From Sialis fuliginosa (taxonomy: Eukaryota; Arthropoda; Insecta; Megaloptera; Sialidae), in NCBI GenBank assembly GCA_961205875.1, contig OY540818.1:384501-448500 (forward strand): a DNA stretch of 64,000 bases. The letters are read 5' to 3'. Shown piece after piece: positions 10,688-50,579 of the stretch (position 1 is its first letter; each line of letters starts with the position of its first letter). The notes under the pieces were generated by a model, which was not told the origin of the DNA, did not search any database, and was given only the letters and a program-made list of their open reading frames with translations. Position numbers and translations under genes: made by a program.

Positions 10688-10696
10688 CTCTTACAA

Positions 10697-10729
<33 letters not shown>

Positions 10730-10763
10730 ACATAAATGGATTAACGAGATTCCTATTGTCCCT
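10688..10763 (+). rRNA. 28S rRNA gene fragment C, R2 site to R1 site
   Basis: CTCTTACAATAGCCAAATGC through TCATCTAATTAGTGACGCAC and TGGATTAACGAGATTCCTAT to TGTCCCT at 10757-10763, where 28S identity ends and the R1-clade element begins. This is the interval between the R2 and R1 targets of insect 28S genes. Confidence 0.92.
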
Positions 10764-11054
10764 CTGGTCTCTCTTCAAAACGTATAAATCTTTCGCCCTT
10801 CAACCAGACACAGACTATTGTAAATATCTTTTATAATATCCTAACGTCTGGTTGGACTAATCTTACTACCGCTTATCTCTGTACTGCTTTCTTACTTCTG
10901 TCTGTCCCTCTCTTCACGGCATCTGGTGGCTCTACCTCCTCGTGGTGAAGGGCGGGCAACGCTCCGAGGCGATTAGTCGTGGACTAGTGCCACGCAATAA
11001 GCCCCCTCGGACGGCTAAACGAGTCCAAACACAAATTAAATTTTAACTAACTTG

Positions 11055-12302
11055 ATGGCCTCAAAGATAACATGTAGCGACTGCGCTCAGGAAGATGAAG
11101 CTGAACATCTTTCTGACAATACAATCGCACCCTGCACCTCTACTCCCGGACTAAAACAAACTTATGATGAAATCCAATCGGCATTAAACAACCTCTCTAA
11201 AATGGTTACAACTTCTAAAGAGCCAGTTAGCCGAAGACATGAGATGCAAAATGATATCTCAAAAATTCTTTGTGCCGTAACAAAACTTCAGTCACTGACC
11301 AACATAAACCACAATACCTATGGTAATATAAATAATAAATTAGATCAGATCATTCAGAAAATCGCTATTCCACTTCCTACAAAAGTTGCTCCGACGTTTG
11401 CGGAAGCAACTAAATCTGCGACATTTCAAGTACCACCTAAACTGAAGATACCCGGGAACAAACCCACTGAGCCTAAAACGATTCATCGCATCATAATACG
11501 ACCTGATGACGGGTCTAACATCAGTTCTAGTGATCAGACTAAATCTGCGGTACTCACCAACATCTCACCTAATAAACTTGGAATTAAAATTGATCGAATT
11601 ATCAGATCCTCTAAAAATTCAATTATTCTAGAATCCACATCTGACTCTATCAACAAACTAATTAATAATCCAGCTCTTACCAAAGCAACACTTCGGGCCT
11701 GCAAACCTGAGAAATTCCAGCCAAGATTGCTGCTTCATAATGTCCCAATCGGGATTAAGGAAGAGCAATTATTGCTTGGGCTAAGAGAACAGAATCTATC
11801 AAACATTAATTTCACTGCATCCATTAAGGTGATTAAAAGACTACCCTGCATTAACAATCCACGCGTGGACGGTCAAAACCTTAACGATGAACCCCAGAAG
11901 AAAAACAAAGCTGTTATAAAATTGCCTCATGGAAATCCTCAATTCAACAATTGGGTCATAGAAACTACCCCCGAAACACGAGATCAAATTATGGCACTAT
12001 CTAAGATCTACATTGGATGGAGTTCAATCCGAGTCACCGATCACTTATACATTAAGAAATGTTATAACTGCCAAAGATATGGCCATTTCGCCAAAGAATG
12101 TCGAGGAGAAGCTGCCTGTGGCTATTGCTCCAAAAGCCACCTCTCTAGGGACTGTCCAAATAAAAGTTCCCTAACATGCCCAAACTGCAAACGAGCAGGC
12201 AATGGCACAAACGAATGTAAACACGACTCGAACGATCGGAACTGTCCGGTGTACAGAAAACATCTTGCCTCCATTATATCAAATATCAACTATGGCAGGT
12301 AA
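11055..12302 (+). CDS. R1-family-1 ORF1 (gag-like RNA-binding protein), 415 aa
   Basis: The ATG at 11055 starts MASKITCSDCAQEDEA. The N-terminal ~100 residues are polar and helix-prone (coiled-coil-like), followed by an F/Y-A-E-A-T-K motif near 117 and a basic middle region. From residue 336 come zinc knuckles: CYNCQRYGHFAKEC (CX2CX4HX4C), CGYCSKSHLSRDC (CX2CX3HX4C) and a third cysteine cluster starting CPNC. This is the usual R1/TRAS/SART ORF1 layout; such proteins coat the element RNA and help target it to chromatin. The last 11 nt overlap ORF2. No stops or frameshifts are seen. Confidence 0.88.
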   Translation: MASKITCSDCAQEDEAEHLSDNTIAPCTSTPGLKQTYDEIQSALNNLSKMVTTSKEPVSRRHEMQNDISKILCAVTKLQSLTNINHNTYGNINNKLDQIIQKIAIPLPTKVAPTFAEATKSATFQVPPKLKIPGNKPTEPKTIHRIIIRPDDGSNISSSDQTKSAVLTNISPNKLGIKIDRIIRSSKNSIILESTSDSINKLINNPALTKATLRACKPEKFQPRLLLHNVPIGIKEEQLLLGLREQNLSNINFTASIKVIKRLPCINNPRVDGQNLNDEPQKKNKAVIKLPHGNPQFNNWVIETTPETRDQIMALSKIYIGWSSIRVTDHLYIKKCYNCQRYGHFAKECRGEAACGYCSKSHLSRDCPNKSSLTCPNCKRAGNGTNECKHDSNDRNCPVYRKHLASIISNINYGR

Positions 12303-15300
12303 CCATCCCATAAAATTTATTCAAATAAATCTTCAAAGATCGAGACTGGCGACCTCTGAATTGAGGATATACTGTGAGGAAACAAATACAGACATCGCTT
12401 TGGTTCAAGAACCTTATAATTACTTTGACCAGTCATTCCAAAGATGGCGACTGCCCGGCTTTGGCAGCCGCAATAGAGTTTTAACACCAACTTCAAGCTC
12501 TAGATTTTATTCTGCAATCATTGTTTTCAATGATCAGATAGACTGCTTACTCATAACTAACCGCTGCGATATTTATAACACTATAGCGGAAATTTCGTAC
12601 CGAGACAAGTCTCTATACTGCATCAGCTCCTACTACCCCCCCAATATGGACATTGAAATATGTACCGCCACTACAAATGATCAACTACATTCGTTTCAAA
12701 CTGGTAACATTCTCTATTGTGGGGACACAAATGCCAAATCTACTCTGTGGCACTCCAATACCACAGATCACAGAGGCATATGTGTGGAGAATACTTTAAC
12801 CGTTAATGGACTTGCAATCCTGAATGAACCAAATAATCTGACCACTTTCTGCAGCCCAAATGGCTCCAGTAACATAGATGTAACTGCGACATCCTTGACC
12901 ATCTGCAATAACATAACAAATTGGAAGGTGATAGACTGCGCGGTCCATAGCGATCACAGAGTGATTTCTTTCACCTGGCTCACCCACACCCCGAGTTCTA
13001 CCACCCACCACTACGGCTTTTGCTATGTAAACATAAAGGAAGAAAATCTTCTGAGAGAAACTCTCCTAATGATAAGTGAATTGGAAAGAATATTTTATTG
13101 GCGGCCTTCCATCGAATCAATCGAGGAACGAGTCACGGCATTAACTTTTGGCCTAATGCGCGTGCGAGATCGCGTGTGTCCAAAACGACGCTTTACCACG
13201 AGATCCACCCCATGGTGGACTTCCTCCCTTGAACGGGCGCGTTCCCGTTTACGACAATCTCGACGACGTTTCCAGCGAAGCATTAATGATTATGACCGCC
13301 AAATCAATCATGCCCTTTACATAAGTGACGTTGAATCTTACAAAACTGCGATAGCAACAGCCAAAGAGCGTAGTTGGAGCCGATTTGTACAAAATGACCT
13401 GAATCACACTCCTTGGGGTACTACCTACAAACTGTGTACCAGAGATTCTCCAAATACAAATATAAAACATTCACTCAAAATAGATGACAACACCTACACC
13501 CATACGATGACAACAACCCTTATCCAAACTCTTGCCAAGATTTTCCCCGTTGATGATCCTGCCGCTGATCTTCCTATGCATGGAGACCTGCGAAACCGCG
13601 CGGCGCAAGCGACTGGTGACAGAAACGTTCAATTTTTCATCTCTGAACAGGAGACTGCTGACTTGGCATACTTCCTTAAAACCAAAAAAGCTCCTGGGTG
13701 GGATACCATCCCAGACGAATTCGTCAAGAAGGTTTATCCCTACATACTTACCTATCTCCAACGCTTCTTTGATGATTGTTTTTTCCTCGGGCACTTCCCA
13801 CGATCCTGGAAAATCGGCAATTTAACCACCTTCTATAAAGACCAAAACCGTGATGTCACCGATGTCAAATCACTAAGACCAATAACTCTTCTACCGACCC
13901 TGGGAAAAATGCTGGAAAGACTAATTTTGCAAAGACTATTGATGTACATTCCAGACAACATACTGTTCCACCCCAATCAGTATGGATTCAGGAAAGGGAA
14001 AAGTACAACCGATGCAATCCAACATATTATAACTAGTGTCGAGACAAGTCCAGAAAAATATGCTATAGCAATCATGATGGACATAAGTGGAGCGTTTGAC
14101 AATGCTTGGTGGCCTGCCATCATCTTAGCACTAGAAGACAAACACGCGCCCCACCAAATCATTGGAATAATCAAGAGCTATTTCACAGATCGTCGTATAG
14201 ATTTTAAAGCCAAACATTCTCAGGCCAGTCTAGAGCTGACCAAAGGCTGCCCACAAGGATCTGTACTTGGACCAACTTTGTGGAACCTTATAGTTAACTC
14301 ACTCCTGGAAACCATATTACCACCCTCCTGCCAAACCATAGCCTACGCTGATGACATAACCTTTGTCATCAGCGCCAGCAACCGCAACGAGCTGGAGGAC
14401 AGGTCTAAGACCTGCATGTTGTTACTCCATAACTGGGCTGAGTCCAATAAATTATGCATTTCCTCCTCTAAATCCAGGTATATCCTACTAAGAGGCTCCC
14501 TTATTCGTAACCCAACCATCAAGTACCAGGGCACAAACATCCAGAGGGTGCAGACAGTCAAATACCTTGGACTTTGGATGGATGAAAAACTCAGTTTCAC
14601 GCCACACATCCGCACTGTATGCCAGGAATCCAAAAATCTATTCTTCAAACTGCGAAGATACGTCCATCAAGTCTCCTCCATTGATGCCAATATCTTACGA
14701 ACCATCCTTAGACATGCAATAGCACCCAAAATTCTTTATGCTGCATCCTGTTGGGGTCACAGAGCCCATCTAACTCATAATCAACGCATCATCACTAGCG
14801 CGCAAGCGGCCTGCTGCCGTGTAGTGATCCACGGCTACTCCTCCGTCTCAGCGGAAGCAGCATTAGTACTGGCTGGCGAATTACCACTTTATCTTATTGC
14901 AGCTCAAAAATACTGCATCACAAGTCTTCGAACAAACAACGTCGCTCCCTTCCTCAATACCGAAATCAACAGGGCCAACTATGATGACCACCAAGCAATC
15001 GTTGCCCATATTAACACCACCATATCCAACATATGGCAGGAGCACTGGATGAACTCGGACAAAGGTAGAAACACCTTTCTGCTGACACCCGATGTATCGA
15101 CTTTTATAATCCGAATACCTTCTTATGATAGCCAGTTAACACAATTTTATACTGGCCACGGCGAATTTGGGGTGCACCTATTCCGTATAGGTAAGATTGA
15201 CTCCCCAAACTGTACCTCCTGTGCAGCACCGGATTCACCAATCCACCGACTTCTCTTTTGTCCTAAATATCATGATGAAAGACATCACCTCCGACAATAT

Positions 15301-15399
15301 CTTGGATACTGGTCGAACCGGGCACATGAAAATATCCATCCCGACCGAATTAATGAACTGCACGAGTTCATAATCCCATTCACCATCAGCAAGACCTGA
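12292..15399 (+). CDS. R1-family-1 ORF2 (endonuclease, reverse transcriptase, zinc finger), 1035 aa
   Basis: The ATG at 12292 is chosen because it overlaps the ORF1 stop by 11 nt and the endonuclease domain begins at once (FIQINLQRSR). Apurinic-type endonuclease: N13, E40 in VQEPY, CGDTNAKSTLW, SNIDVT and the SDHR motif. Reverse transcriptase: LRPITLLPTLGKMLER, the first catalytic aspartate in DISGAF (D597), GCPQGSVLGP and YADD at 685-688. A C-terminal zinc finger CX2CX7HX4C runs at residues 974-990. All catalytic residues are present and the frame is uninterrupted. The protein would nick the target and copy the element RNA by target-primed reverse transcription. Expression was not assessable. 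Confidence 0.92.
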   Translation: MAGNHPIKFIQINLQRSRLATSELRIYCEETNTDIALVQEPYNYFDQSFQRWRLPGFGSRNRVLTPTSSSRFYSAIIVFNDQIDCLLITNRCDIYNTIAEISYRDKSLYCISSYYPPNMDIEICTATTNDQLHSFQTGNILYCGDTNAKSTLWHSNTTDHRGICVENTLTVNGLAILNEPNNLTTFCSPNGSSNIDVTATSLTICNNITNWKVIDCAVHSDHRVISFTWLTHTPSSTTHHYGFCYVNIKEENLLRETLLMISELERIFYWRPSIESIEERVTALTFGLMRVRDRVCPKRRFTTRSTPWWTSSLERARSRLRQSRRRFQRSINDYDRQINHALYISDVESYKTAIATAKERSWSRFVQNDLNHTPWGTTYKLCTRDSPNTNIKHSLKIDDNTYTHTMTTTLIQTLAKIFPVDDPAADLPMHGDLRNRAAQATGDRNVQFFISEQETADLAYFLKTKKAPGWDTIPDEFVKKVYPYILTYLQRFFDDCFFLGHFPRSWKIGNLTTFYKDQNRDVTDVKSLRPITLLPTLGKMLERLILQRLLMYIPDNILFHPNQYGFRKGKSTTDAIQHIITSVETSPEKYAIAIMMDISGAFDNAWWPAIILALEDKHAPHQIIGIIKSYFTDRRIDFKAKHSQASLELTKGCPQGSVLGPTLWNLIVNSLLETILPPSCQTIAYADDITFVISASNRNELEDRSKTCMLLLHNWAESNKLCISSSKSRYILLRGSLIRNPTIKYQGTNIQRVQTVKYLGLWMDEKLSFTPHIRTVCQESKNLFFKLRRYVHQVSSIDANILRTILRHAIAPKILYAASCWGHRAHLTHNQRIITSAQAACCRVVIHGYSSVSAEAALVLAGELPLYLIAAQKYCITSLRTNNVAPFLNTEINRANYDDHQAIVAHINTTISNIWQEHWMNSDKGRNTFLLTPDVSTFIIRIPSYDSQLTQFYTGHGEFGVHLFRIGKIDSPNCTSCAAPDSPIHRLLFCPKYHDERHHLRQYLGYWSNRAHENIHPDRINELHEFIIPFTISKT

Positions 15400-15669
15400 G
15401 AACTCCATCGGCTACTTCGACCGAAGAGATGGCTAGACTAAGACATGAGAATCCACTAACACACACCACAGAGACCAGAGTCACAACCTTAGATTTAAGC
15501 TAGAATTAAGACCCAGAATATAACATTTATTTAACATTTTCATTATTATTACTAATATAGTTATTATTATATTATTATTATTATTATTATTATGTCCAAA
15601 CTGCTCCATGACGGGTTTTTGGTACCGTCAACTGTAATCTTTGTTTAAAAGCATTAATAAACGTGAATT

Positions 15670-15722
15670 GCTCTGCTACCAGCTGGTAGCAGAGCCCTTT
15701 TTTTTTTTTTTTTTTTGTCCCT
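15670..15722 (+). repeat. 26-bp perfect palindrome, T19 run and TGTCCCT at the 3' end of family 1
   Basis: GCTCTGCTACCAG (15670-15682) is followed by its exact complement (15683-15695). Then come CC, 19 T (15698-15716) and GTCCCT. The run is oligo-T on the coding strand rather than the poly-A usual for R1-clade 3' ends. The decayed copy J keeps a degenerate version of the stem, T8 and TGTCCCT. A second possible stem, TGACGG/CCGTCA, lies just upstream near 15610-15631. Confidence 0.85.
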
Positions 15723-16005
15723 GTGGCACTGAGGGCCCGTTTAACCCCTGTTTCACAGGGGAGCGGGGCGATTGCCTTCACCGGCCGTCGCGCGAGGATG
15801 GATACCTCAATAAAAATCCCCTACATCCTAAGGTCTGGATTTGTGCCGAAGGGATGCGTAGTTTTCACTACGTGGCCGTCAGGTGAAATCGGTCTCAAGC
15901 AAACCAACCTCGGGGCACCTGGCGCACCCCGTTGTATATAGCCTAGTTGGGCCTAAGGGCGTATGGTCCAATGGTCCTCAAGTCGTCCCATTGCGTGGGA
16001 ATTTT

Positions 16006-17370
16006 ATGTCAAATCCTAAAACTAAACCCGACGAGGAGGAAGTTAGAGCTTTCGGGAGGAGCCCGAGAGTTGCCAGATCTCCGCCCGGAGGTGCTGGTGG
16101 AACATCGAAGACGTTGGCTCCTATTTCAGTTGAGAGAACCAGGAAAACCAGCGTGAATACTGAAGTACAATCGCAGTCGAGGCAGGGCTCGATGGATAAC
16201 CTGAGCGTTAAGAGTTCAGGCAGTCTACCTAAAAGGAAGAGAACTGAAGAGGTAGATATAGATGACGACGAAGAACAGGACGTCATCCAAGAATGGGGAC
16301 CCCTGAGAGCAATTGGCGACAGGCTCAGGAAGTTTGTCCTCAACGACGCTAATAAAATCTCAAAGACAGCCGCAGAGTTCATTCTGGCCAGGGCGGCTGA
16401 GTACGAAGAGATCGCCAGAAATAGCATAACAAGGCGAGAAAAAGAAGTTGGAAGGTTGGAGGGCCAAATTGTTGAGTTAAGACGGCGTAGTGTCACTGAC
16501 GCCCCTGTCAGTAAACCAATCAAACCCTCATATGCCGCTGTTGCTGCAACTGCTGCTGCCCCGACCCCGACCCCCAAGAAGGCTTCAGGTCCTTCAGCTT
16601 CGGCTAAGCCCAAAGGGCGAGTGAAGACCTTTCCAGTCTTAATTAGGTCCCTAAAAGAAGGCACCTCCAGTGAGGAAGTGAAGCAGAAGCTTTTTAAAGA
16701 GGTTGCTACGGACAACTCCTTAAATGTAAGGGCCGTGGCAATAAGGAAGATAAGGGATGGCGTAGTCATGGAAGTGCCCACGGCTGCAGAAAAGGACCAG
16801 CTCCTAGGCTTCTCTAAATTAGCCGGTCTTCAACTCAAGGCGGATACTCCAAGGCCTTCTGGGCCTAAGATCCTGATCTACGATGTTCCGTCGACCCTCG
16901 ATAAGGACACACTTCTTGGCGAGCTTTTCAAGAAGAACCTTGTTGGCGAAATTGACATGACTGAAGCGTCTTTCAAGGAGGGGTCACGTATCCTCTCTAG
17001 AGGTGGAAGCAGGGAGACGGCTAACATAGTCGTAGAACTCCCCAGTAGGAGAATCACCGACCTGTTATGCAACAGGGGCAGAGTTTACTTGGGGTGGTAT
17101 TGTCTCCGGGTTAAGGAGACACACAATGTCATTAGATGCTTCAGGTGCTATGGCTTTGGACACCTTGTGGCCACCTGTCCTAAGGCGACGAACGTTTGTA
17201 GGGTGTGCGGCGTAGAGGGGCACTTGGGTGACAAGTGCAGCCACAAAGCCAAATGTAATAACTGCCATGAGCGAAATCGACCAAGCGACCACGCGACCAT
17301 GGACAATGACTGTCCTACATACAAGGATATGGTCCGGAAGCTAAGGAGCCGTCTCCGCAGTGATGGCTAG
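16006..17370 (+). CDS. R1-family-2 ORF1, copy A, 454 aa, intact
   Basis: The frame is open from 15883 but the ATG at 16006 (MSNPKTKPDEEEV) is preferred, because copies C, E and F have an ATG at the same point after the conserved 5' UTR GCGTGGGAA block. Order: S/P/R-rich N-terminus, acidic stretch DIDDDEEQDV, a helical region with a KEVGRLEGQIVELRRR coiled coil, PSYAAVAA, a basic segment GRVKTFPVLIRS, an RRM-like part (KILIYDVP), and three knuckles from residue 378: CFRCYGFGHLVATC, CRVCGVEGHLGDKC, and CNNC with H and C further on. RNA-binding gag-like protein of the element. It overlaps ORF2 by 8 nt (ATGGCTAG). Confidence 0.9.
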   Translation: MSNPKTKPDEEEVRAFGRSPRVARSPPGGAGGTSKTLAPISVERTRKTSVNTEVQSQSRQGSMDNLSVKSSGSLPKRKRTEEVDIDDDEEQDVIQEWGPLRAIGDRLRKFVLNDANKISKTAAEFILARAAEYEEIARNSITRREKEVGRLEGQIVELRRRSVTDAPVSKPIKPSYAAVAATAAAPTPTPKKASGPSASAKPKGRVKTFPVLIRSLKEGTSSEEVKQKLFKEVATDNSLNVRAVAIRKIRDGVVMEVPTAAEKDQLLGFSKLAGLQLKADTPRPSGPKILIYDVPSTLDKDTLLGELFKKNLVGEIDMTEASFKEGSRILSRGGSRETANIVVELPSRRITDLLCNRGRVYLGWYCLRVKETHNVIRCFRCYGFGHLVATCPKATNVCRVCGVEGHLGDKCSHKAKCNNCHERNRPSDHATMDNDCPTYKDMVRKLRSRLRSDG

Positions 17371-20300
17371 CAGTTTCAAACTGCTTCAGCTGAACTGCCA
17401 AAGGTCCGCAGTTTTGATGGCGGAGCTAGGGCTCATACTGGCGCGGGAGAAGTATGACTTTGCTCTCATCCAGGAGCCATATGTATGCAACGGGAAGGTC
17501 TGTGGCTTGCCCTCCGGTACCAGGATCTTTTCCTCCTCGGGCAACCCAAAGTCGGCAATTGTGGTCAACGGGGACTTTGTGGCTATGCCACTCCTCAACC
17601 ACATTACCGACTGTTTTAGCGTTGTCTCCTGCAGTGGTGGCGTTGACCTGTTGCTCTACTCGCTGTACTGCCAGTTTGGTGAGCCGATTGAGACTTTCAC
17701 GGATCGGTTGGACGCCATTCTGGATAGTGCAGCTGGCAGCAACATTGTAATAGCCATGGATGCTAACGCGACGTCCCGCACCTGGCACAGTAAGAACATA
17801 AGAAGGGGTGCCCTTAACGCGCTGAATGGTGCCATCCTCGAGGAATGGCTGATTGGTCGTGATCTGTCGGTCCTTAACGAACCGTCTGAGGACTATACTT
17901 TCAATGGTCCCAATGGATGCAGTGACATTGACCTGACGCTCTTCTCGGGTGATACCCGCTACGAGTTCGAGTGGAGAGTTGATGCTGCGGCTGTGGTCAG
18001 TGACCACAGTCTTATCAGGATCACCGTTTCGGTGAATGGCGACCCTAACCCTTCGGTTCAGGTTCCTAGCGTTGGCTGGAGAATCCCTGCAGACCCGTGC
18101 TGGCAGGATTACTGCCAGGATGTGGCGGTTAAAGCGCATGCTTTCGGCCTCGCAGAATGGATGACCTTGGACGTCGATTCCAAGGCCGCAACACTGGACT
18201 CCTGGTTGACCGGCGTCAATGACGCTCATTTTGCACGTAAAGCTCAGCGCGGTCGCATCACCAAGATCAAATGGTGGAACAGTGATCTGGATAGGCAGAG
18301 AGCTAAAGTCAGAAGTCTCAGGAGGAGAGTACAAAGAGACAGGAGGCGATCACGAGTATCCCTAGTCGCAACTGACCTCAGGAGGGAACAGAGCAAATAC
18401 AAGCTGTTAATTAAGAATGCCAAAAACAGCCATTGGCAGAGTTTTGTACACGACTGCGGTAACACTGATCCATGGGGCAGTGTTTACAAATTCTGCCGCA
18501 GAACTCGACTGCCCGGGGATCTATGTTCCCTCATGATTCGCGGGGTTCCCACCACCACCTGGGAGGAGTCCGCAGCTGCCCTGCTCGAGGAGTTCTTCCC
18601 CCCCTCGACATCCCCTGTCAACAGGGAATGTCTTCTTGCAGATCAGGAGTTTGAATGGGAGGAAATCGCGGATGCGTTCACTCGCACCAGAGGAAATAAG
18701 GCCCCGGGGCTGGATGGTTTCGATGGGCGCATGGTTAGAGCCGCCTGGGCGGCAATACCTGCCTACATCAAGGACCTCTTCGACAGCTGCTTGAGGGAAG
18801 GTTCCTTCCCTACACGGTGGAAGCAGGCCAGAGTAGTTTTTCTACTGAAGTCACCGTCGAAACCTAGGTCGAACCCTCGGTCCTATAGGCCCATCAGCCT
18901 GTTACCTGTTCTGGGTAAGGTACTCGAGCGTATCATGGGTGAAAGTTTGCACAAGGTAGTCAGTCCTCACCCAGCCCAGTTTGGGTTCATCAAGGGGAGG
19001 TCGACCGATGATGCGCTATGTCTCGTCGCTCGTGAGGTGTCATTGGCACCCTCTAAGTACATACATTCGTGGACTTCAGGGGAGCGTTTGATTACCTGGA
19101 GTGGGGTGTCATCTTCAATAAGCTGCGCGGGCTGGATCTGTCCGAGACGTCTCTTTGGTGCAGCTATTTTTCGGACAGGGCCGTGGTGTCGTCGAGCAGT
19201 GTTGGCATTGTCTCACGGCCGGTCGAACGCGGTTGTCCGCAGGGTTCAATTTGTGGTCCTACCATTTGGAACCTAATGCTTGACGACCTGCTAACCGTGC
19301 TGGTAGGGAGTGGCTTTCGAGTCGTAGCCTATGCTGACGACCTGCTGGTCCTGATCCCTGGAAGTAGCAGAGCTGAACTTGAGGGTCGCGCTGCCGAGGC
19401 TCTAATCCCAGTTCTTGACTGGGGGCGGAGTGTTGGTGTAGACGTCTCTAGGGACAAATCAGTAGCCATGATGCTAAAAGGCAGATTCAGAGGCCGCAAT
19501 CCTACGGTCAGGACCACACGTTATCGTGTGTGCCCGAAATCCGGTACCTGGGTATATTAATCGGAGAGAGGATGACCTACCACAGCCATCTCAGGTATGT
19601 GAGGGAGAAGCTGGCCAGTATGGCGGCGATGTTCCGGCGGGTCCTCAAAAAGGATTGGGGACTGAATAGGAGTTCTACCGACACTCTCATGCGCGGTCTC
19701 TTCCTGGCGTGTGCCCTATATGGAGCTCCGCTATGGTGGAGATTTGTCACCACGGTTAGAGGGTCGCAGGTTCTCAATAGCTGCCATAGGGTGGTCCTGT
19801 ACGCCTGCCTGCCTGTCTGCAGAACGGTCTCCACAGCTGCTATGCAGGTCCTCATGGGCGCTCTGCCCTGGGACTTGGAAGCAGTTAGGTCGGGGGCTAG
19901 GTACTTACGCAAGAGGGGGATTGATTTCGAGCTGGACTACGTTGCCTCCACTGACCTACGAGGGCTTGGACGCGAAGAAGTAAAAGCGCTCCTGGATAGA
20001 AGGTTGTGGGGTGAATGGCAGAGACGGTGGTCGCTCGCAAACACGGGTTCGGTGACCCGTTTGTTTGTTCCTGAAGTTTCGAAGCTCCGCGACCGACACG
20101 ACCTCGTGTGGAACAGATTCGTCTGTTTCCTCGTAACTGGACACGGCAGTCTAAATGCCTTTCTGAAGACCCGTAACCTGAACGACTCGGAGTACTGCCA
20201 GTGCGGTGGAGTCGAGGATTGGGAGCATGTCCTGGTCCACTGCGGTTACTACGAAGGTTTCCGGGATCTAGCCGCGATGGGTATATCCATGGAGGAAGAC

Positions 20301-20429
20301 GGAGCCTACACTTTCCAGAGGTGCCTGGACAGCGTCGCTACCTTTTCAGCCCTGAAGGACTTTGCGCGTGAGGCGTTCGTCAGAAGAGGTACCCATCGGC
20401 CACCTCCTCCTGCTGGGATACCGCCATAA
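17363..20429 (+). pseudogene. R1-family-2 ORF2, copy A, two frameshifts
   Basis: The ATG at 17363 lies inside the ORF1 stop region (ATGGCTAG). Endonuclease: LLQLNCQRS, IQEPYV, AMDANATSRTWH, SDIDLT, VSDHSL. RT: YRPISLLPVLGKVLER, FRGAFDYLEWG, GCPQGSICGP, YADDLLVLI. C-terminal zinc finger: CQCGGVEDWEHVLVHC, spaced CX1CX7HX4C, a feature shared by all family-2 copies. The frame breaks near 19055-19070 by a small deletion just before the first RT aspartate, and again near 19505-19530. Catalytic motifs are otherwise retained, so the damage is recent. Stop at 20427-20429. Confidence 0.9.
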
Positions 20430-20894
20430 TTCGGCGGACTGATAAGGTTAACCAGTACCAGGGTGGGTGAACACCCATACTGGTAGCTTCCCTCTATTTG
20501 AGGGGGCGGGACGCGACCGGCGGTCTATAAATAATTCGGTACCACGGGCTGACCAGGGGCCCCACAGGGCTATCTTCCCTGTGCCTGGTCACTTTGCGGT
20601 TGGCGCTTAGGCAGTTTCGTGGTGGTAGTGGTTAAACCCCACATCGCGGGGAAGGGGTGCTTGCCGCCCCGACGGGTGAGCAGCGTCATCTGCTCGGGCA
20701 CTGTACCAGCATAGTCAGTAGAGATTTAGATAGGTCTCGGCTCCACCAGTAGTCCGTAAAGTTTCACCACTGGAGGGAACTGGTAGTCTAACGCTCGTTG
20801 GACGAGTTGGTATGGCTTTCCATACCCCTCGCCCATGGGGGCCATGTGGTCATGCACCTTGTGCGATACCGCATGTAAAACTTATCTCGAATCC
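20430..20894 (+). other. structured 3' UTR of family 2, copy A
   Basis: About 460 bp that recur in copies B (24204-24681), C (29777-30249) and D (33307-33778). It is rich in short inverted repeats. One example is GGTATGG/CCATACC at 20809-20826, whose stem is kept in C and D (B keeps 6 bp) while the loop differs. In R1/R2 elements the reverse transcriptase recognises the 3' UTR RNA, which would explain the conservation. No poly-A tail is present; the sequence runs straight into TGTCCCT. Confidence 0.75.
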
Positions 20895-20901
20895 TGTCCC
20901 T

Positions 20902-33778: not shown

Positions 33779-33785
33779 CATTGAT

Positions 33786-37185: not shown

Positions 37186-37224
37186 AAACTCAGGAAGTTT
37201 GTCCTCAATGACGCCAATAAGATC

Positions 37225-39740: not shown

Positions 39741-41119
39741 ACAAAATTAAATCCCAGACTCATCATTTATGATGTGCCCAAAGAGCTTTCGGATCGTCAA
39801 CTTGTCGATAATCTGATCAAGCAGAATACACTGAATGACTTCACTCCATCTGCGAGCGAAATTAAGCCCATAATAAGACTGGTGAATAGGAGAAATTCAA
39901 ATAAACTCAACTGGGTTATTGAGGTGACACCAGAAATAAGAAATTGGCTTATTCAACTTAAGAAGGTATATTTGGGCTGGTCGTCAGTGGGGTTGAAGGA
40001 CTACCTTCGTATTATCAGATGTTATAAATGCCAGAAGTTTGGGCATCTTGCTAAAGAGTGTCTGGGTCAAGAAACTTGTGGAAATTGCTCAGAGAACCAC
40101 ATTACGAAAGACTGCAATAACAAAAATGCTCCTATATGCGCAAACTGTAAGAGGATGGGACTACCCCCTGATGCGGTTAAACATGATACTGCAAGCCGCA
40201 CCTGCAAAGCATACATTAAAAAAGTAGATAGCAGCCTTAATAATATCAATTATGGATAGTAATCAGAAAATTCGCTGCAAAATTCCAAGGTTGCAACCAC
40301 GGAACTCAGATATTATTGCGAGCAGAATAAGATAGATATTGCGATGCTTCAGGAGCCCTACTGTTACCTTGAAACTGCGACGCATGTCTGGCGTATCCTG
40401 GGCTTTGGATCACAACATATAGTTCTTACCCCAAGAATCAGAGATAGATTCTACGCGGCGGTGATAATCTTTAATCCCCTGATTGACTGTATGATCCTAA
40501 CTCAGTTTTCCAATCGCCTGATTGTCACATCAGAGATCGGATTGAGAAATAATCGGTTCTATGCTGTCAGTGCTTACTTCCCACCCAACGATGATATAGT
40601 TGAGATTACTACCGAATTATTCATGTGGTATAATAATTTAAATGATAAGATAATGATTCTGAGTACTGATTGTAATGCAAAATCTGCTCTATGGTTCTCT
40701 ACCCACAATGATCACAGGGGAGAAGTAATGGTTAACTTTCTAGCCACCCTGGACTTAATCGTGGCAAATCAGCCTGGGAACCCTGCAACTTTCAGTGGAC
40801 CGATGGGAGAGAGCAACATCGATGTCACTGTGGCTTCCATTAACATGATTGACCGCGTCTCTGACTGGGTAGTATTGGAGGATACGATACAAAGTGATCA
40901 TCGAGCCATTAGATTTGATATTAGTGTACATAACGCAGCAATCCTTCACAAAACACTACAATTATTCTTATATAGATATGGAGGTTGTGGTGAGGGAAAC
41001 CCACTGCATGCTGGACGAATTAGATAAGAAATTCTATTGGAGACCTACTATAGAGTTGATTGATGAGCGGGTCACGGCCCTTATTCATGGACTGAGAGAA
41101 GTGAGGGACAAAGTGGTGC
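39741..41119 (+). pseudogene. R1-clade family 3, copy H: ORF1 C-terminus and ORF2 endonuclease
   Basis: ORF1 part 39747-40259: NPRLIIYDVP, then knuckles CYKCQKFGHLAKEC and CGNCSENHITKDC, third cluster starting CANC, ending NINYG before TAG. ORF2 ATG at 40252 overlaps that stop by 8 nt (ATGGATAG), but a frameshift follows within 60 bp. Endonuclease then reads LQEPYC, STDCNAKSALW (an S replaces the usual G before D), ESNIDVT and QSDHRA. The copy ends near 41119 within CACAAA, shared with the R2-like fragment that follows, so the junction is at microhomology. Confidence 0.82.
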
Positions 41120-42150
41120 ACAAATCGACCCCCCTGAAAGACTGATTCCCCTGAGTGACGTGCTTGCACCGATCTTAATGAAGGAGATTGTCCAAAGGTT
41201 GGGCAAAACCAAGTCTGACACTGCTGTTGACCCAAATGGGCTCAAAAGGTAAACATAACATGCAAGCCAGCAGCAGCGGTCCTCCATTCATCATAATAAT
41301 AATATCTAATAAACTGCCCATCAATGGAGGAGCAATCATACCATTTTGATACCGAAGGAGGGCAGAGACCCCTCCTTAGTACAAAATCTCCGCCCGATAA
41401 CCATTAGCTCAATCCTGAGTCGTATTTTCTGGGGAGTGATCGACCAGAGATTGAGAAAAGTGGCACGATTCAACCCCCGCCAAAAGGGCTTTGTGTCTGA
41501 GGCGGGGTGCTTCAATAATATGCACGTCCTAAATGAGATGCTCAGACACTCAAAGCGCAATCAGGGCCTGGTCGCAGTGCAATTGGACTTGTCCAAGGCC
41601 TTCAATACGATACCCCATGAAGCCATAGGGCCAGCAGTCTGCCCGAGTATGTGGTAAGACTCGTGGTAGATAGTTACAAGGACGTGTACACGGTCATAGG
41701 GAATGATGGTCATTCCATTCCCGTCATTCTTCTGCGAGTAGTCAAGCAAGGGTATCTCCTTTTGCCCTTTATATTTAATGCTATTATTGATGTCTTGTTA
41801 GCATCACTGGAAAGGCTTCCAGGATATAAGGTAGGGGATGTTGACATCCATGTGCTGGTTTTTGCAGACGACCTCATTTTAACTGCAAACACTGTACCAC
41901 AGGTCAGCGCCCTGCTAGGTGAAACCGAGTCCTTTCTCCGAGGGCTCGGAATTGCAATTTCCGACCCCAAATGTTCCACATTCTAAATTAACATCGGTGG
42001 GGGTAAGGATAAAGTCTCCTGGTATCTAGTAGATCCTGGGATGCAACTCAATGGTGGGGAGCGGATTCCGTATGTGGATGCGGATTCCAGGCTCACCTAC
42101 TTTGGCCTTAATATCTCCCTTGACTCTGCTCAGGGAGTTAGACCGGGAGC
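41120..42150 (+). pseudogene. R2-superfamily RT fragment, copy 2
   Basis: Nearly identical to 7840-8735: IDPPERLIPLSDV, EIVQRLGKTKSDTAVD, LRPITISSILSR, QLDLSKAFNTIPHEA, FADDLILTANTV. Beyond the shared part it retains the thumb (PYVDADSRLTYFGLNISLD near 42068-42110) that copy 1 has lost. The first catalytic motif reads KAFN where copy 1 reads KAFD, and a small deletion near 41625-41640 breaks the frame. There is no CCHC or endonuclease domain: the fragment is fused to an R1-like endonuclease end. Confidence 0.85.
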
Positions 42151-42224
42151 TACGAGTAGTGATACGAGATATATTCCACTTGCCGCAATGCGTCACCAAC
42201 GGTTTTATTTACAGCGGCAAGTGA

Positions 42225-43258
42225 GACGGGGGACTAGGTTTCCCCAGGATGGAGACCATTTCTGTTTGACCACTTTCATGGGACCGTGCGGTTCCAGTAA
42301 CATAGATGTCTCCACAGTTACAGAAGGACTTCTAAGATGTGCGCGTGACTGGCGTGTTGAGGAGGGTCTAATTCTTAGTGATCATCGAGCAATATTATTC
42401 GATATTGATCTGTATGGAATCGACAGACGTGTGGAGCGCAGATCAATATATAATTACAAAGATGTTAAGCTAGACGAATTAATACTAAAGATGGGTTACA
42501 TGCTTAATGAACTTAACGCTGCCTTTATTTGGCGTCCTAATATTTATGAAATTGAAGAGCATGTAGTCACTTTAACTAATGGTTTGACTAAAGTCAGGGA
42601 TCTGGTCGCTCACAAAGTTACATATAAAAAGAAGACCGTAGCTTGGTGGACTGTCTCAGTTGAGTCGGCGCGGAAGCGTCTCAAACAGTGCAGAAAAATA
42701 TATCAACGAAGTGCTAATAATGCAGACAGGGAGATAAATCGACTTACATACAATTCAAGTATTGATTCATATAAGAAAGCTATTTACAAAGCTAAAATTT
42801 CTAGTTGGGAAAGTTTTGTCAAAAATGACCTCTCAAAATCTCCATGGGGATTTACATATTGTAAATTGGCGGCTGATAAATTAAAAATAAAATTAATATG
42901 ACCTAATCAGAGATAATGCTTTGGGTACGCATGTTAATATAAGTGAAACACTTAATAAGATATTGAATAAGGTATTCCCTGATGATGATCGTGCTAGCGA
43001 AACAGCTGACCATCATGCAATCAGAGAGTCTGCTAATTTGACTACTGGAAATTTAGAAATAGATTTTCACGTCACAGAAAGTGACGTACTTGAATTGTAC
43101 CCTAGTTTAGGCAAAAAGACGGCTCCTGGTAAAGACGGCTTGTATTCACAATTTATAAAAATGGCATTTCCAATGCTTGTAACACATCTTCAGTATATAT
43201 TTGATAATTGCTTATTATTCGGATATTTCCCAAAGGTATGGAAGGTTGGCGTATTAAC
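42225..43258 (+). pseudogene. R1-clade copy I: endonuclease end and first part of RT
   Basis: The copy begins in a remnant of the FPPGGD region, lacks the GDLNAKS block, then reads TTFMGPCGSSNIDVS, LSDHRA, FIWRPN, the basic ESARKRLKQCRKIYQRS and SPWGFTY. After two stops near 42899-42912 it continues with VTESDVLELYPSLGKKTAPGK and YFPKVWKVGVLTR. There it stops, joined to ORF1 sequence of family 1 (copy J). The upstream frame is continuous with the R2-like thumb (42041-42901), so an artificial fusion ORF of 286 codons exists. Closely related to element L. Confidence 0.82.
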
Positions 43259-44175
43259 AAGATGCATTCACTAATCAATGAACATACCACAAACGACAAT
43301 CTAAATACAAAACTTGATACCATTTTAGAAAAGCTTGAGGCGTCAAAACCCTCTGGAGCTTTATCAAGTTACGCAGATCATGCTCGTGTCCCAACCATCA
43401 AGAAAGCCCCACCTAAACTAAAAATTCCTGTAAGTAAGTCCATCGATCCCAGAGCGATCTATCGAGTTGTCATCTGTCCTGAAGAGGGCTTCAGGATCAA
43501 GACAAGCACATATCACCAAACGCTCTTGGTATTAAAATTGACAAAATTGTCCGCACCTCAAAGAGCTCCATTATTTTGGAGTCTGAATCCGACAGCATAA
43601 ACAAATTGGTAGGAAACACCGCCCTGACCAAAGCTTATTTAGTGGCTACTCGAGCTGGTTAACTAAACCCAAGAATTCTGCTACATAATGTTCCCTACAA
43701 AATGGATGAGAGACAACTTGTGAACGGGCTTATCGCGCAAAACCTTAATGATCTAAATCATGAAGCCCAGGGGAATATTAAAGTTGTTGTAAAATTGCCT
43801 CGTGGCAACTCTCAACTCAACAACTGGGGCATAGAAACCACCGCCGAAATACGAGACCAAATCATGGAACTTTCCAAAATCTATATTGGATGGTGCTCCA
43901 TCCGAGCTACCGATCATTTATATGTTAAAAAGTGTTATAACTGCCAAAAATATGGCCATTTTGCCAGGAAATGTCGAAGAGAAGTTGCCTGTGGCTACTG
44001 CTCCAAAAGCCACCTTTCTAGGGACTGCCCAAACAAAAGCTCCTTAACATGCCCAAACTGCAACCGAGCGGGTAATGACACAAATTAGTGTAAACATGAC
44101 TCCAATGATAAGAACTGTCCGGTGTATAAAAAACGTCTTGCCTCGATCATATCTAACATCAACTATGGCAGGTAA
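43259..44175 (+). pseudogene. R1-family-1 ORF1, copy J
   Basis: PPKLKIPVSKSIDPRAIYRV, then a frameshift near 43500 and a TAA near 43662. LLHNVPYKMDERQL follows, and the knuckles CYNCQKYGHFARKC and CGYCSKSHLSRDC are preserved, with a TAG near 44085 inside the third cluster. The original stop overlaps the ORF2 ATG by 11 nt (44165-44175), exactly as in the intact copy. Confidence 0.83.
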
Positions 44176-46257
44176 CCATCTCATTAAATTCATCCAGATA
44201 AACCTACAAAGATCGAGACTAGCGACCTCCGAATTGAGGATATATTGTGAAGAGACAAATACTGACATCGCTTTTGTCCAAGAACCATACAACTACTTTG
44301 ACCAGTCAGTCCAAAGATGGTGACAGCCCGGCTTCGGCAGCCACAACAAAGTTCTGACACCAAGTCCAAATTCCAGATTCTACTCTGCAATCATTGTCTT
44401 CAATAACCAGATAGACTGCTTACTTTTAACCAATTACTGCGATATCTACAACACCATAGCAGAAATCTCGTTCCGAAACAAATCCTTATATTGCATCAGT
44501 TCCTACTATCCACCCCCCCCCCCCCCCCAATATGGACATCAAACTATGCACAGCCACTACAACTGATCACCTACATTCTTTTCAGACTGGCAACGTTCTC
44601 TTCTGCGGGGACACAAATTCTAAGTCCACCCTGTGGCACTCCAATGCCACAGATCTCAGAGGCACATGCGTAGAAAATATTTTAACCGCAAATGGACTCG
44701 CAATACTGAATGAGCCAGACCATCTGACTACTTTCTGCAACCCTAATGGCTCCAGCAACATAGACGTAACTGCTGCATCGCGATCACATAGTGATTTCTT
44801 TCACCTGGCACACCCACACCCCGAGCACCATCATCCACCAGTACGGCTTTTGCTATGAAAATATAAACGAGGAAAATTTTGCGAGAGAAACTTGCCAGAT
44901 GATGAGATGATAAGAAAGAATATTCTGTTGGCGGCCTTCCATCTAATCAATCGAGGAACGAGTCACAGCCTTAACTTTTGGCCTAATACGTGTGCGAGAT
45001 CGCGTGTGTATAAAACGGCCGCGTTCCCGACTGCGACATTCTCGACGACGCTTCCAGCGAAGCATCAACGATTATGACCGCCAAATTAATCATGCCCTCT
45101 ATATAAGTGAAGTTGAAGCTTATAAAACTGCGATTACAACAGCTAAAGAGCGTAGTTGGAACCGATTCGTACAAAACGACCTGAATCGCACACCATGGGA
45201 TACTACCTACAAATTATGCACCAAAGACTCCCCAAATACAGATATTAAATACTCCCTCAAAATAGATGACAACTCCTATACTCACACAATGGCAGCAACT
45301 CTTACCGAAACTCTCGCCAATGTCTTCCCCAATGATGATCTTACAGCTGATCTCCCTATGCATAGAGACCTGCGAAACAGCGCGGCGCAGAGCATGCGAC
45401 TGGTGATAAAGATGTTCAATTTTTCATCTCTGAACAAGAGACTGCTGACTTGGCACACTTTCTTAAGAAAAAAAAAGCTCCTGGGTGGGATACTATCCCA
45501 GACGAATTTGTCAAGATGGTTTATCCCTTCATATTTACTTATCTCCAACGCATCTTTGATGATTTTTTTTTTCAAGTCTCCTCCATAGATGCCAACAACT
45601 TACATACCATCTTCAGACTTGCAATAGCACCCAAGATTCTCTACGCTGCATCCTTCTGAGAGCACAACCAATGCATCATCACCAGCGCACAAGCGGCCTG
45701 CTGCCGTGTAGTCATCAGCGGCTACACCTCTGTCTCAGCGGATACAACACTCGTCCTGTCTGGCGAATTAACGCTTCACCTAATCGCCGATCAAAAGTAC
45801 TGCATTGCAAGACTACGAACGGCTAACGTCGCTCCTGTCCTCAACACAGAGATCAACAGGACCAATTATGATAATCACCGAGCAATCGTCCCCCATATCA
45901 ACACCATCATAACCAACATGTGGCAGGAGCACTGGATGAACTCAGCCAAAGGCAGAAATACCTTTCTGCTGATTCCAGACTAACGACCTTTGTACTCCAA
46001 ATACCTTTATATGACAGCCAGTTGACTCAATTTTGCACCTATTCCGTATAGGCAAGATCGACTCCCCTAATTGTACCTCCTGCACTGCACCAGATTCACC
46101 AATTCACATACTTCTCTTCTGTCCAAAATATAACGATGAAAGACTTCACCTCCGCTAATATCTTGGATACTGGTCAAATCGTGCACATGAGATCATCCAC
46201 CCCGATCGAATCAATGAGCTGCACGCGTTCATAATCTTTTACCACCGCCAAAACCTG
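44165..46257 (+). pseudogene. R1-family-1 ORF2, copy J, RT deleted
   Basis: The ATG at 44165. FIQINLQRSR and VQEPYN are followed by a TGA near 44321. A C16 tract at 44513-44528 replaces C7 of the intact copy and shifts the frame. CGDTNSKSTLWH and SNIDVT remain; the SDH block is damaged. LRHSRRRFQRSINDYDR and KKKAPGWDTIPDEF follow. At about 45572 the sequence jumps from the first RT block to VSSIDANN, deleting roughly 280 codons with both catalytic RT motifs. The C-terminus is decayed; the zinc finger reads CTSCTAPDSPIHILLFC. Confidence 0.85.
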
Positions 46258-46542
46258 AGAAGTCCATCGGCCACTTCGACCGCAGAGATGGCAAGACCGA
46301 GAAATGAAAATTACCGAATCACAACTACTGACACCAGAGAGACCAGAGTCTCAACCTTAGATTAAGTTATAATTAAGTATTAGAAGCATAACTTTCATTA
46401 ATATTATAACAAACTAGAAAATTGTTTTCACACTGTTCCATGACGGGTTTTTGGTGCCGTCAAATGTAATTTTGTTAATTATTAATAAACGTGAACTGCT
46501 CCACTACCCATTTGGTACTAGAGCCCCCTTTTTTTTGTCCCT

Positions 46543-47655
46543 TTGGAATATGGTTACAAATGATTTACTGGAGGCTGAATATCCAGAAAATTGTATGGTA
46601 ATTGCATATGCAGATTATATTTGTATAAGTATTAGAGCTAATAGTCGTGCAGAATTAGAAAGATTGGCTTCCTTGTGCTTATGCAATGTAACAATTTGGG
46701 CTGATAGTAATCGACTCCAAATTTCAATAAAAAAAACTTGTTATATATTGCTGAAAGGAACATTGATCAGAAATCCAACAATTAAATATAAAGGAAGTAA
46801 CATCTCCAGAAAGCGTGTTGTTAAATATTTGGGATTACATTTGGATGAAAAATTATCATTTATACCACATGTTAATATAGTATGTCAAAATTCAGTTAAA
46901 ATATTTCAAAAATTACGAAGATAAGTAATAACATACCTAAATCCAGACAGTGATGTCTTACAAACAATATATCGATATGCAATAATTCCTAAAATTGCAT
47001 ATGCAGCTTCATGTTGGGGAACCAGGGCAAATATTACACATATTAAAAGAAAACTAAATAGTACTCAAGCTATATGCTGCAGAACAATTGTATCAAACAT
47101 GGCTGCAAATATACTTTCTGGAGAAATGTCATTGTATCTTCAGATATTAAAAATTTACAGTGCCCAAATTTTAAAGACACATTAATTCAGTTAAAATATA
47201 TAACAAGACCTTCCATATTGAACAAAATCGTCAACATACTTTGGATAAAATAAACGATTATTTACATAACATTTGGCAAAGTGAATGGAAGAAGTGGATA
47301 AAGGCAGGATTACCTTTTTTTCCCAAAAGCTGATGTTTATGAATTTATAATTCCAAAATACGAGAAGAAATTTACCGAAATATTGACAGGACATGGGTAA
47401 TTTGGACAGAATCTACATCGAATTGGAAAGAGACAATCACCAAACTGCGATGCATGTGATTGATTCTCCAGTTCATAGAATAATGATTTGTCCAAATTTT
47501 ACAGAACAAAGGAGAGAGCTAAGAAAACATGTAGGACACTGGGCTCCAAGGATCCATGAAATAATAGATCCATATCTAATAGAAGAGCTCAAAGAATATC
47601 TTATAACTTCACCAGTGATTAACTTTAATTTGATATTAATTTGGTTCAAATAAAT
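46543..47655 (+). pseudogene. R1-clade copy K: RT palm to C-terminus
   Basis: The copy starts at LWNMVTNDLL, immediately after TGTCCCT. YADY replaces YADD near 46608. Then TIKYKGSN, VKYLGLHLDEKLSF, IPKIAYAASCWG, a frameshift after 46920, RTIVSNMAANILSGEMSL, and a C-terminal block with HVIDSPVHRIMICPNF near 47450 corresponding to the zinc finger. Probably the other end of copy I, but about 190 codons of RT between I and K are missing. Very AT-rich. Confidence 0.78.
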
Positions 47656-47681
47656 TAAATTAGAATTTTTAATATATGTTG

Positions 47682-47788: not shown

Positions 47789-47926
47789 GAAATCTCGATA
47801 TCAGTTTTTGAATGTGGGGCTTATAAACTATAGTTAATTATATAAAATTTAAACATTTTCGTGTTAGTGAAAATGTAGTAATGTTATATACTATTTTATT
47901 ATGTAATAAATAACTTATTTATTTAA

Positions 47927-48922: not shown

Positions 48923-48926
48923 TTAA

Positions 48927-49385: not shown

Positions 49386-49850
49386 ATGGCGGCGAATGAA
49401 GAGTTACAAGTGATGAAGTCCAGTTTTTACGAAGAGTTTGACTGTGTATTGGCTTCGAAACACGATAATAACCGAAGTTATATGAATAAAACACACTACT
49501 TGAAGTTGATAGAAGACGTTAAAAAAAACTACGAAACGTACAACATTACAATATCGTCGTTTGAAACGTTTCGATGTGTGTAATATCGGTAATATCGATA
49601 AGTTAATTGTTCCCGTATCTAATACCGACAATCTCAAATACTACGTCAAGAACGAAGCTTTGTTCGATGTTCTTAATGAAATACATTTGTCTATTGGACA
49701 CAGTGGAAGAAACAGAATGGTTGTAGAAGCAAAAAAAAGGTAGGTACGCAAATGTAACTCAGGAGACCATTCTTTTATATCTTCGATTATGTAAGCCGCG
49801 TCTAATGAAGCAAAAATCCATAAAAAAAGGTCTCGTCGTGATACCCATTT
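49386..49850 (+). pseudogene. KRBA2-like / Ginger-type integrase gene relic (N-terminal part)
   Basis: The ATG at 49386 (MAANEELQVMKSSFYEEFD). A frameshift near 49575 is followed by the H2C2-type block EIHLSIGHSGRNRMVVEAKK. A 4-nt duplication (AGGTAGGT near 49738) then causes TAG and a shift, and TQETILLYLRLCKP and KKGLVV follow. This resembles the protein annotated KRAB-A domain-containing 2 in insect genomes, which is a transposon-derived integrase of Ginger/gypsy type. The integrase core is gone, replaced from about 49850 by Jockey-type sequence. Family recognition is from memory of the motif pattern. Confidence 0.6.
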
Positions 49851-50304
49851 TAATTATGCCTTTGCATATAGTGCTATTAAATACTGTGTTGTGTTATGGG
49901 GACATTCCCTTGAAGCGATCAGAATTTTCAGAGCTCAAAAAAGAATTTTAAGACTCATATTCAATATTGAATTTAGACAAAGTTGTAAACAAATTTTTAT
50001 AGACAATAAAATTCTAACGTACTGTATCTATATTTATGAAGTAATAATATACATAAAACAAAACATAAGCAACTTAAAATTTCACTCAGATATACACAAC
50101 TATAATACAAGACCGAATGATAATATATACATATATAATTTTTATAGGACAACCAGGTATAGCAATAGCCCTATATGCAAAGGCAGTAATTATTACAATT
50201 TACTACCTGATTGCTTAAAGGATATAAAGGACATGGGAGCATTTAAAAGTGGTTTAAATGATTTTTTATGTAAGAGGTGCATTTATAGTTACAAGATGGA
50301 ATAA
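49851..50304 (+). pseudogene. Jockey/CR1-type RT C-terminus
   Basis: The frame reads LWGHS, IFRAQKRILRLIFNIEFR, SCKQIFIDNKILTYC, HNYNTR and SPICKGSNYYNLLP up to TAA at 50302-50304. These are the conserved C-terminal blocks of Jockey/BS-type reverse transcriptases. No stops occur inside the fragment. It is 5' truncated at about 49850, where it abuts the KRBA2-like relic. The 3' UTR runs to about 50572 and ends CCGCT7 before GTCCCT. Confidence 0.75.
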
Positions 50305-50579
50305 TTTTTATTTTTTTCATTTTTATTAATTATAATTATAATGAATTATCATTTGTTGATAGCGTGATCGTTCCTTTCATAATTTGTATTGTTGAATTAG
50401 AATTTTGTTTATTTAATATGTGTATAGGTATATTATGTATGTTTATGTGTACGTATGTATATGTTATGAATATGTATTTCCTTTTTTTTTCTCTTTGACC
50501 TGTTCTATATATTTTATGAATAAATATTTTTCTATCTTCTATCACCCACCAGGTGGTAAATTCCGCTTTTTTTGTCCCT
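50305..50579 (+). other. 3' UTR of the Jockey-type fragment, ending T7 and TGTCCCT
   Basis: AT-rich, with alternating TATGTA-type sequence around 50420-50480. It ends AAATTCCGC, seven T (50567-50573) and GTCCCT (TGTCCCT at 50573-50579), the same terminal arrangement as the family-1 R1 elements. Element L begins next. Confidence 0.6.

Follow-up and report, generated by a model that had tools for sequence, protein, structure and literature searches.

Repeated landing of R1-type elements at a 28S R1 site very probably underlies a head-to-tail stack in Sialis fuliginosa

How does one short motif come to stand at boundary after boundary in a run of retrotransposons? We addressed this question in a stretch of 64,000 nucleotides of Sialis fuliginosa (the window, C10:384501-448500) and in its own genome, of which 392 Mb in 20 contigs were searched. 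The original prediction regarded TGTCCCT, the core of the 28S R1 target, as the mark of retrotransposon junctions at 10757, 15716, 20895, 24682, 30250, 46536, and 50573. All seven positions were verified, and the motif is also present in uninterrupted 28S at 9822. On both strands of the window TGTCCCT occurs 17 times against 6.78 expected (sd 2.74), a count that none of 100 shuffles reached. Eight of these copies are R1-site sequence, namely the seven junctions and the uninterrupted 28S site, and the other nine, which are located at 24484 (within the 3' UTR of B), at 10903 (within family 1), and at seven places on the minus strand, amount to about a chance number. As the common junction sequence, however, TGTCCCT held only in its first four letters: TGTC is constant, whereas CCT is not, since the D/E junction reads TGTCATTGATCTG. 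The recurring element is TGTC, immediately 3' of the 28S upstream half-site. We consider it highly probable that R1-type elements of several lineages landed repeatedly at the 28S R1 site; the features are listed in Table 1.

Table 1. Features of the window around the stack, from left to right
Feature	Position	Strand	Remarks
Broken R2-type element	7640..9761	+	Start approximate; resembles PDB R2 proteins in its RT and C-terminal parts; 3' end adjoins 28S at the R2 site (TAGCC)
28S fragment with uninterrupted R1 site	9762..9935	+	Right limit approximate; TGTCCCT at 9822, 60 bp from TAGCC; Rfam
28S fragment upstream of the R2 site	10045..10136	+	92% to the Rfam consensus at 10065-10112; limits approximate, the outer ones presumed by eye
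Short insert between 28S halves at the R2 site	10137..10696	+	Probably a truncated R2-type element, judged from its borders
28S, R2 site through TGTCCCT	10697..10763	+	Left anchor of the stack; 94% to the Rfam consensus
R1-type element family 1	10764..15715	+	Two uninterrupted ORFs; poly-T 3' end; CCHC, EN, and RT domains
Junction family 1/A	15716..15728	+	TGTCCCTGTGGCA
R1-type element A	15729..20894	+	Two breaks in ORF2; the C3 copy has a longer 5' UTR
Junction A/B	20895..20905	+	TGTCCCTGTGG(CG); final letters overlap B via microhomology
R1-type element B	20906..24681	+	5'-truncated in RT
Palindromic insertion within B	21656..23367	.	Arms 97% complementary
Junction B/C	24682..24690	+	TGTCCCTGT, then C 5' end GGCGGGAGAG
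R1-type element C	24691..30249	+	Long 5' UTR
Junction C/D	30250..30258	+	TGTCCCTAT
R1-type element D	30259..33775	+	5'-truncated near ORF2 start
Junction D/E	33776..33787	+	TGTCATTGATCT; absent from the original prediction; same TGTCATTGATCTG on C3
R1-type fragments E, F	33788..37186	+	Long 5' UTR in F from 34675
Broken R1-type fragments H, I, M and R2-type fragment	37207..43259	+	R2-type fragment from 41119
J	43260..46535	+	Decayed family 1 relative
Junction J/K	46536..46542	+	TGTCCCT
K, R1-type fragment	46543..47655	+	5'-truncated; end approximate
Hairpin and poly-T tail, 29 nt	50544..50572	+	Family 1 and J tails similar
Junction into L	50573..50581	+	TGTCCCTAT
L, R1-type element	50582..54380	+	Limits approximate; long AT-rich 5' UTR, broken ORFs; left border known from one copy

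The left anchor of the stack was assigned to 28S by Rfam. A default scan of the whole window gave no 28S match. A scan of 9600-10900 with permissive filters detected LSU_rRNA_eukarya at 9600-9922 (E 9.9e-21), and the 28S consensus matched at 9762-9892, 10065-10112, and 10697-10763. In both 28S pieces that hold the R1 site (9822, 10757), this site lies exactly 60 bp after TAGCC, the R2 site, which is the R1-R2 distance published for 28S in the accessible text of PMC2718515 (Stage and Eickbush 2009). An R1 (28S-specific) insertion is thus placed 60 bp downstream of the R2 site and before TGTCCCTATC, and an R2 element with an R2-type RT, a C-terminal domain, and its 3' end at the R2 site precedes it. 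At the right end of the stack, comparison with the Rfam 28S consensus detected no downstream 28S half, a point against serial insertion. A census of the site in the genome returned 35 28S matches, of which 17 span the R1 site, nine end there, six start there, and three start further on. The break accordingly falls at the R1 site in 15 of the 35, the nine left halves ending at query positions 60-75 and the six right halves starting at 58-63. With good confidence in the explanation as a whole, we regard the window as the low-coordinate edge of a ribosomal-DNA cluster, whose 28S pieces run on to C10:705883.

Family 1 contains an ORF1 with CCHC knuckles and an ORF2 with both an APE-type endonuclease (EN) and an RT. 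Compared with PDB endonuclease chains, its EN scored best against TRAS1 (71.6 bits) and next against R1Bm (42.1). TRAS1 is a telomere-specific element of the R1 clade; family 1 resembles it in this best score and differs from it in lying at the 28S R1 site. Element A matched R1Bm best (69.8 bits) and TRAS1 next (55.2 bits) among the PDB chains. The EN of A was above the Pfam cut-off and its RT was below because the open frame breaks off, and its ORF1 had no Pfam match at E 0.001. The stack elements are therefore placed putatively in the R1 clade, on the basis of their insertion site and of the matches to the R1Bm and TRAS1 chains.

Since a 3' end precedes TGTCCCT at every one of the seven junctions except 10757, where 28S does, the motif might be a conserved 3' terminus of the elements. 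When the 3' ends were compared with their flanks, TGTCCCT belonged to the flank, and the ends of A to D carried varying letters after TGTC. The A-D type 3' end occurs at no fewer than eight places in the genome, four in the window and four outside. Among the places listed, TGTC follows in all eight and TGTCCCT in only three, so that five ends lack it. The letters after TGTC are CCTGTGG in A and B, CCTATAC in C, ATTGATCTG in D and at one place on C3, and TCAACCCTGC at two places on C3 and one on C10. The copy at C3:36476429-36471255 is 99% identical to A of the window and has the same end, CGAATCC, followed by TGTCTCAACCCTGC, which puts TGTCTCAACC after an identical end. Furthermore, two 3' end types without detected similarity precede TGTC: the A-D type, and a hairpin with poly-T found in family 1, J, and the tail at 50544-50572. 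R1-type poly-T 3' ends were also found in 28S that keeps its downstream half (L031, L033, and L034), before TGTCC(C/T)TATCTACTAT; L030 is altered there, and L029 was the one unlike an R1 3' end among the five right halves viewed of the six. The near-identical A copy with other letters, the two unlike 3' ends, and the R1-type poly-T ends before a downstream 28S half indicate that TGTCCCT is flank. The case that would speak for element sequence, 3' ends with TGTCCCT whatever the site, was not seen among A-D type ends in the genome, and the motif is shared by dissimilar 3' ends and by uninterrupted 28S. A terminus of the elements is thus a scarcely credible reading: it is refuted for CCT, and the sole constant part, TGTC, is itself 28S.

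A second proposal was that family A-C used a distinct, non-28S target, TGTCCCTGTGG, and the stretch common to three junctions, TGTCCCTGTGGC, speaks for it. The extension shared by A, B, and C is real, although it is one base longer than had been stated, and B and C share 13 bases at the junction. However, GTGGCG extends into C at its 5' end (from 24691 on), and different letters stand after this 3' end in its other copies. In the array search that had been suggested, the 11-mer TGTCCCTGTGG formed no array elsewhere in the genome. It occurred 36 times in 392 Mb compared with 22 for the reversed control, and only the sites at A, B, and C were less than 10 kb apart, the next closest pair being separated by 17 kb on C3, in a test of 11-mer spacing, with R1-type ends viewed at the A, B, and C sites. 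Because GTGGC(G) continues into C and the 36 11-mers are scattered, with only those of A-C near one another, GTGG is not a second target and the additional letters come from the 5' end of the older C. It is therefore most improbable that these elements had a target of their own. The left flank of family 1, TGTCCCTCTGG, may be a mutated TGTCCCTGTGG.

The junction at 50573 required a different correction. TGTCCCT is present there, but the Jockey-type copy that had been named as its upstream partner is a bystander. When 50440-50572 was searched against the genome, 26 of the 31 matches stopped at query base 98-105 (about 50543 in the window) and three stopped earlier, while only the window copy and C3:36516574 reached the query end. 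Since 29 of the 31 matches stop before them, the final 29 bases before TGTCCCT look like an R1-type 3' tail. This tail is probably the remnant of an R1-type element after the Jockey-type copy had inserted just upstream.

The proposal of serial insertion into the duplicated target was borne out by the flanks. The left and right flanks share 12 bases in A and 13 in B. Elsewhere, a C copy at C10:458573-463141 has 10 bp common to both flanks, and the copy of A on C3 is bounded on both sides by TGTCTCAACCCTGC, an exact target-site duplication of 14 bp composed of 4 nt of 28S and 10 nt of an older element. A duplication of about 14 bp is thus found in these four, whereas the flanks share 7 bases in C and in family 1 and 4 in D and in a C copy on C3; matching flanks are not a property of every element. 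L039 and L040, in which the upstream 28S half ends at CCCAC with no TGTC after it, also indicate that the duplication is not universal. Two refinements are needed: the stack grew on the 28S-upstream side of C, and D and the C3 copy of C require recombination besides insertion.

The duplications are nested and contain bases of older elements, so that neighbours are separated by the duplicated target with the newer one on the 28S-upstream side. The left neighbour of the C3 copy of A is 28S (CCCAC). On its right lies an L-like element. Homology of this element to L of the window begins at 51257, immediately past TGTC, and the frame that agrees with the start of L stays open for 84 codons. Of the 14 duplicated bases, the final 10 are thus element sequence, and this copy of A must have come in later than the L-like element, into whose 5' junction it inserted. 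In the window, the GTGGCG of the A and B flanks continues into C, indicating that C is older than family 1, A, and B. The C-type 5' end itself recurs at 34675 within F, twice on C3, and in a 28S fragment at C10:651609 after TGTTCCTATCTACTA. The duplications do not fix the order among family 1, A, and B, since the same letters would remain whether an element had entered left of A or right of family 1.

These features suggest how the stack may have grown. As in published R1 work, the target would be nicked just before TGTC, and reverse transcription would start at the nick, so that each 3' end would be followed by TGTC and whatever lay downstream. A duplication of up to 14 bp on the 5' side would restore the 28S upstream half-site with TGTC. 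The site would thus survive each insertion and admit a further element at the 5' junction of the one already there. The duplication would accordingly include the opening bases of the older element, as is seen in the C3 copy of A and as the flanks of A and B over C are read. Afterwards, deletions and unequal exchange from one stack to another may have rearranged the right-hand part.

Recombination is called for by flanks that do not match. The left flank of D reads TGTCCCTAT and its right flank TGTCATTGATCTG; for the C copy at C3:36458191-36454750 the left and right flanks read TGTCCCTATCTACT and TGTCTCAACCCTGC, respectively. A single insertion is inadequate for either, which suggests an unequal exchange between two stacks within homologous R1 sequence. 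We had also considered that TGTCATTGATCT at the D/E junction was a decayed TGTCCCTATCT; this was dropped since C3 carries the identical TGTCATTGATCTG. Contig C3 further contains a block (36553089-36550548) that is 95% identical to 8267-10760 of the window and pieces (36539267-36536811) that are 90-98% identical to H and I, but between these blocks C3 has D-like and A/D-like elements, whereas the window has family 1 to F. As the blocks are alike and the sequences between them are not, both rDNA edges seem to share an ancestor and to have been remodelled since.

These mismatched flanks, the UTRs common to several lineages, and the flanking blocks of C3 and C10, which are 90-98% alike and differ between, would also fit an array produced by unequal crossing-over or by amplification of one tandem unit instead of separate insertions, as has been proposed for D. 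melanogaster R1 arrays. However, A, B, C, and D are different lineages (third codon positions of A and C are 56-61% different) with different 5' truncations and lengths, and the C3 copy of A looks full-length and has its own 14-bp duplication. It is therefore unlikely that the array arose in this way; crossing-over or amplification is disfavoured as the sole cause and may have had a secondary role. An assembly artefact of rDNA repeats is less probable still. Assembly is difficult at rDNA edges, a few junctions within the stack (H/I, I/R2) lie inside genes, and the stretch L060 contains 2500 N, but the joins coincide exactly with the R1 site, and another contig follows this rule with an exact 14-bp duplication.

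If the stack grew by serial insertion on the 28S-upstream side, decay of the coding regions is a second source for the order. Stops and frameshifts were counted with query pieces from A and C, so that the counts are partly self-comparisons; codon numbers were rounded and one stop near the end of D was omitted. The breaks per 1000 codons were 0 in family 1 (open frames, 1480 codons), 1.3 in A (2/1505), 0 in B (0/527), 2.7 in C (4/1480), 6.0 in D (6/about 1000), 9.7 in E (2/207), and 4.8 in F (3/620). The trend over these seven elements had a Monte Carlo p of 0.0005 and a rank-permutation p of 0.022; for the first five elements, the values were 0.0009 and 0.067. B, which has no breaks though downstream of A, and F, which has fewer than E, are out of order. 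Further right and outside the trend test, the breaks against family 1 per aligned codons were 5/839 in H, 1/424 in I, 1/327 in M, 10/798 in J, 6/354 in K, and 11/969 in L. Since the fragments past F do not continue the rise smoothly, the gradient backs the order only within family 1 to about E.

The UTRs show a history different from that of the coding regions. In the region present in all four elements, coding sites split A and D from B and C at 95 sites, versus 15 and 10 for the other splits, and the RT stretch gave 69 versus 13 and 4. In the 3' UTR, the split was 9 for A with C, 3 for A with D, and 0 for A with B. While 56-61% of third codon positions differ between A and C, the two are 96.7% alike in the 3' UTR and, per 60-column window over the first 240 columns, 94-100% alike in the 5' UTR. 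In the pairs compared, the change in similarity is sharp near the ORF1 start and the ORF2 end, a pattern that strong constraint on the UTRs would explain as well. The disagreement between the splits, counted over 12 UTR sites, favours some exchange between lineages. It is conceivable, and we put it forward tentatively, that R1 lineages sharing a landing site share interchangeable ends and that the rDNA R1 site is a recombination hub. In such a hub, which would serve a quasi-community of elements, stacking would bring divergent elements head to tail, and template switching, gene conversion, or unequal crossover inside the stacks would keep the UTRs nearly identical while the coding regions diverge towards saturation. 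If confirmed, the mosaic would mean that divergent elements trade the parts that the enzyme recognises.

The accessible text of PMC2718515 describes tandem arrays of R1 in Drosophila and proposes that new copies enter the duplicated target on the 5' side of an R1 already in place; it reports a 14-bp duplication with variants of 11, 13, and 8 bp and, in D. ananassae, R1A upstream of R1B. The mechanism has thus already been published for Drosophila R1, and the depth of the stack, the mixed lineages, and the readable nested duplications are new here. As far as that text describes them, the Drosophila arrays resemble the present one in having head-to-tail R1 at the normal 28S site. They differ in that the present stack combines two kinds of 3' end with several deeply divided lineages and the right flank of D is mismatched, and in that the separators here carry bases of older elements (GTGGC, TCAACCCTGC) whereas those of Drosophila are a clean 14-bp 28S stretch. 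The R1 blocks of D. melanogaster and D. simulans beside rDNA or in flamenco, as presented in the accessible parts of PMC12400953 and PMC10495008, are similar as islands of broken R1 copies or tandem duplicates. The flamenco copies, by the same accounts, are on average 3.7% diverged and lack the 28S site, whereas different lineages are anchored on 28S here. No report of older-element bases in an R1 duplication was found in a literature search outside which most subscription papers lie, and a search with the letters of the site gave no related title among those listed. Copies outside the S. fuliginosa genome were not detected in the viral_contigs or genome_contigs collections.

From the nested duplications the order of events can be read. 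They also explain why an R1 insertion need not protect the 28S gene from further insertions. The 28S upstream half and TGTC are kept while the downstream sequence may be foreign, which suggests which half of the target must survive and makes recognition by the R1 endonuclease directly testable.

A and E share a short 5' start, for which no notable Rfam match was found when an HDV-type ribozyme and other known RNAs were sought. The RNA of this start, for which we claim no function, folds better than shuffles (z -3.13).

The 5′ UTRs (window 15729-15977 and 25066-25330) and 3′ UTRs (window 20446-20894 and 29802-30249) of A and C, two of the R1-type elements stacked head to tail, are common to both elements and about 97% alike, although the third codon positions differ by 56-61%. 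The splits derived from the UTRs and those derived from the coding sequence are in conflict. A and E, another stacked element, start with the same CTGAGG (window 15729 and 33788). In C, F, and the full-length-looking copy of A on contig C3, where the 5′ UTR is long, this point lies about 330-375 nt into it. The common start is a hint of an additional 5′ end for the RNA, which at this place folds more stably than shuffled versions (z -3.13).

Family 1, J, and the tail preceding L end in a hairpin and a T run, not poly-A, directly followed by the 28S target sequence TGTCCCT. A Jockey-type element (window 49801-50543), whose family is scattered over many contigs and whose 3′ region has 31 genomic matches including the window copy, has inserted into a probable R1-type element, 29 bp short of its end.

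At C10:582572-587022 and C3:36386926-36379613, 28S halves stop at CCCAC without duplicated TGTC. Since the closest right-hand 28S halves are 4-7 kb distant, these ends may mark a further candidate R1-type family inserted without duplication. One and the same rearranged R2/28S/R2/28S block occurs on two contigs, at window 8267-10760 and C3:36553089-36550548 (95%); the rDNA edge has apparently undergone segmental duplication.

B carries a palindromic insertion (window 21656-23367, arms of about 322 nt), and related sequence lies at window 57596-58362. Two other stretches, 61574-63879 and 4409-5845, are bounded by inverted repeats with 97-98% complementary arms 0.7-1.7 kb apart, and are possibly DNA transposons.

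Inverted repeats and 3′ ends in the window
Feature	Position	Structure
Inverted repeat pair	61574-61870 and 63583-63879	
Inverted repeat pair	4409-4796 and 5458-5845	
Family 1 3′ end	15660-15715	hairpin + 18 T
J 3′ end	46500-46535	hairpin + 7 T
Tail before L	50544-50572	hairpin + 6 T
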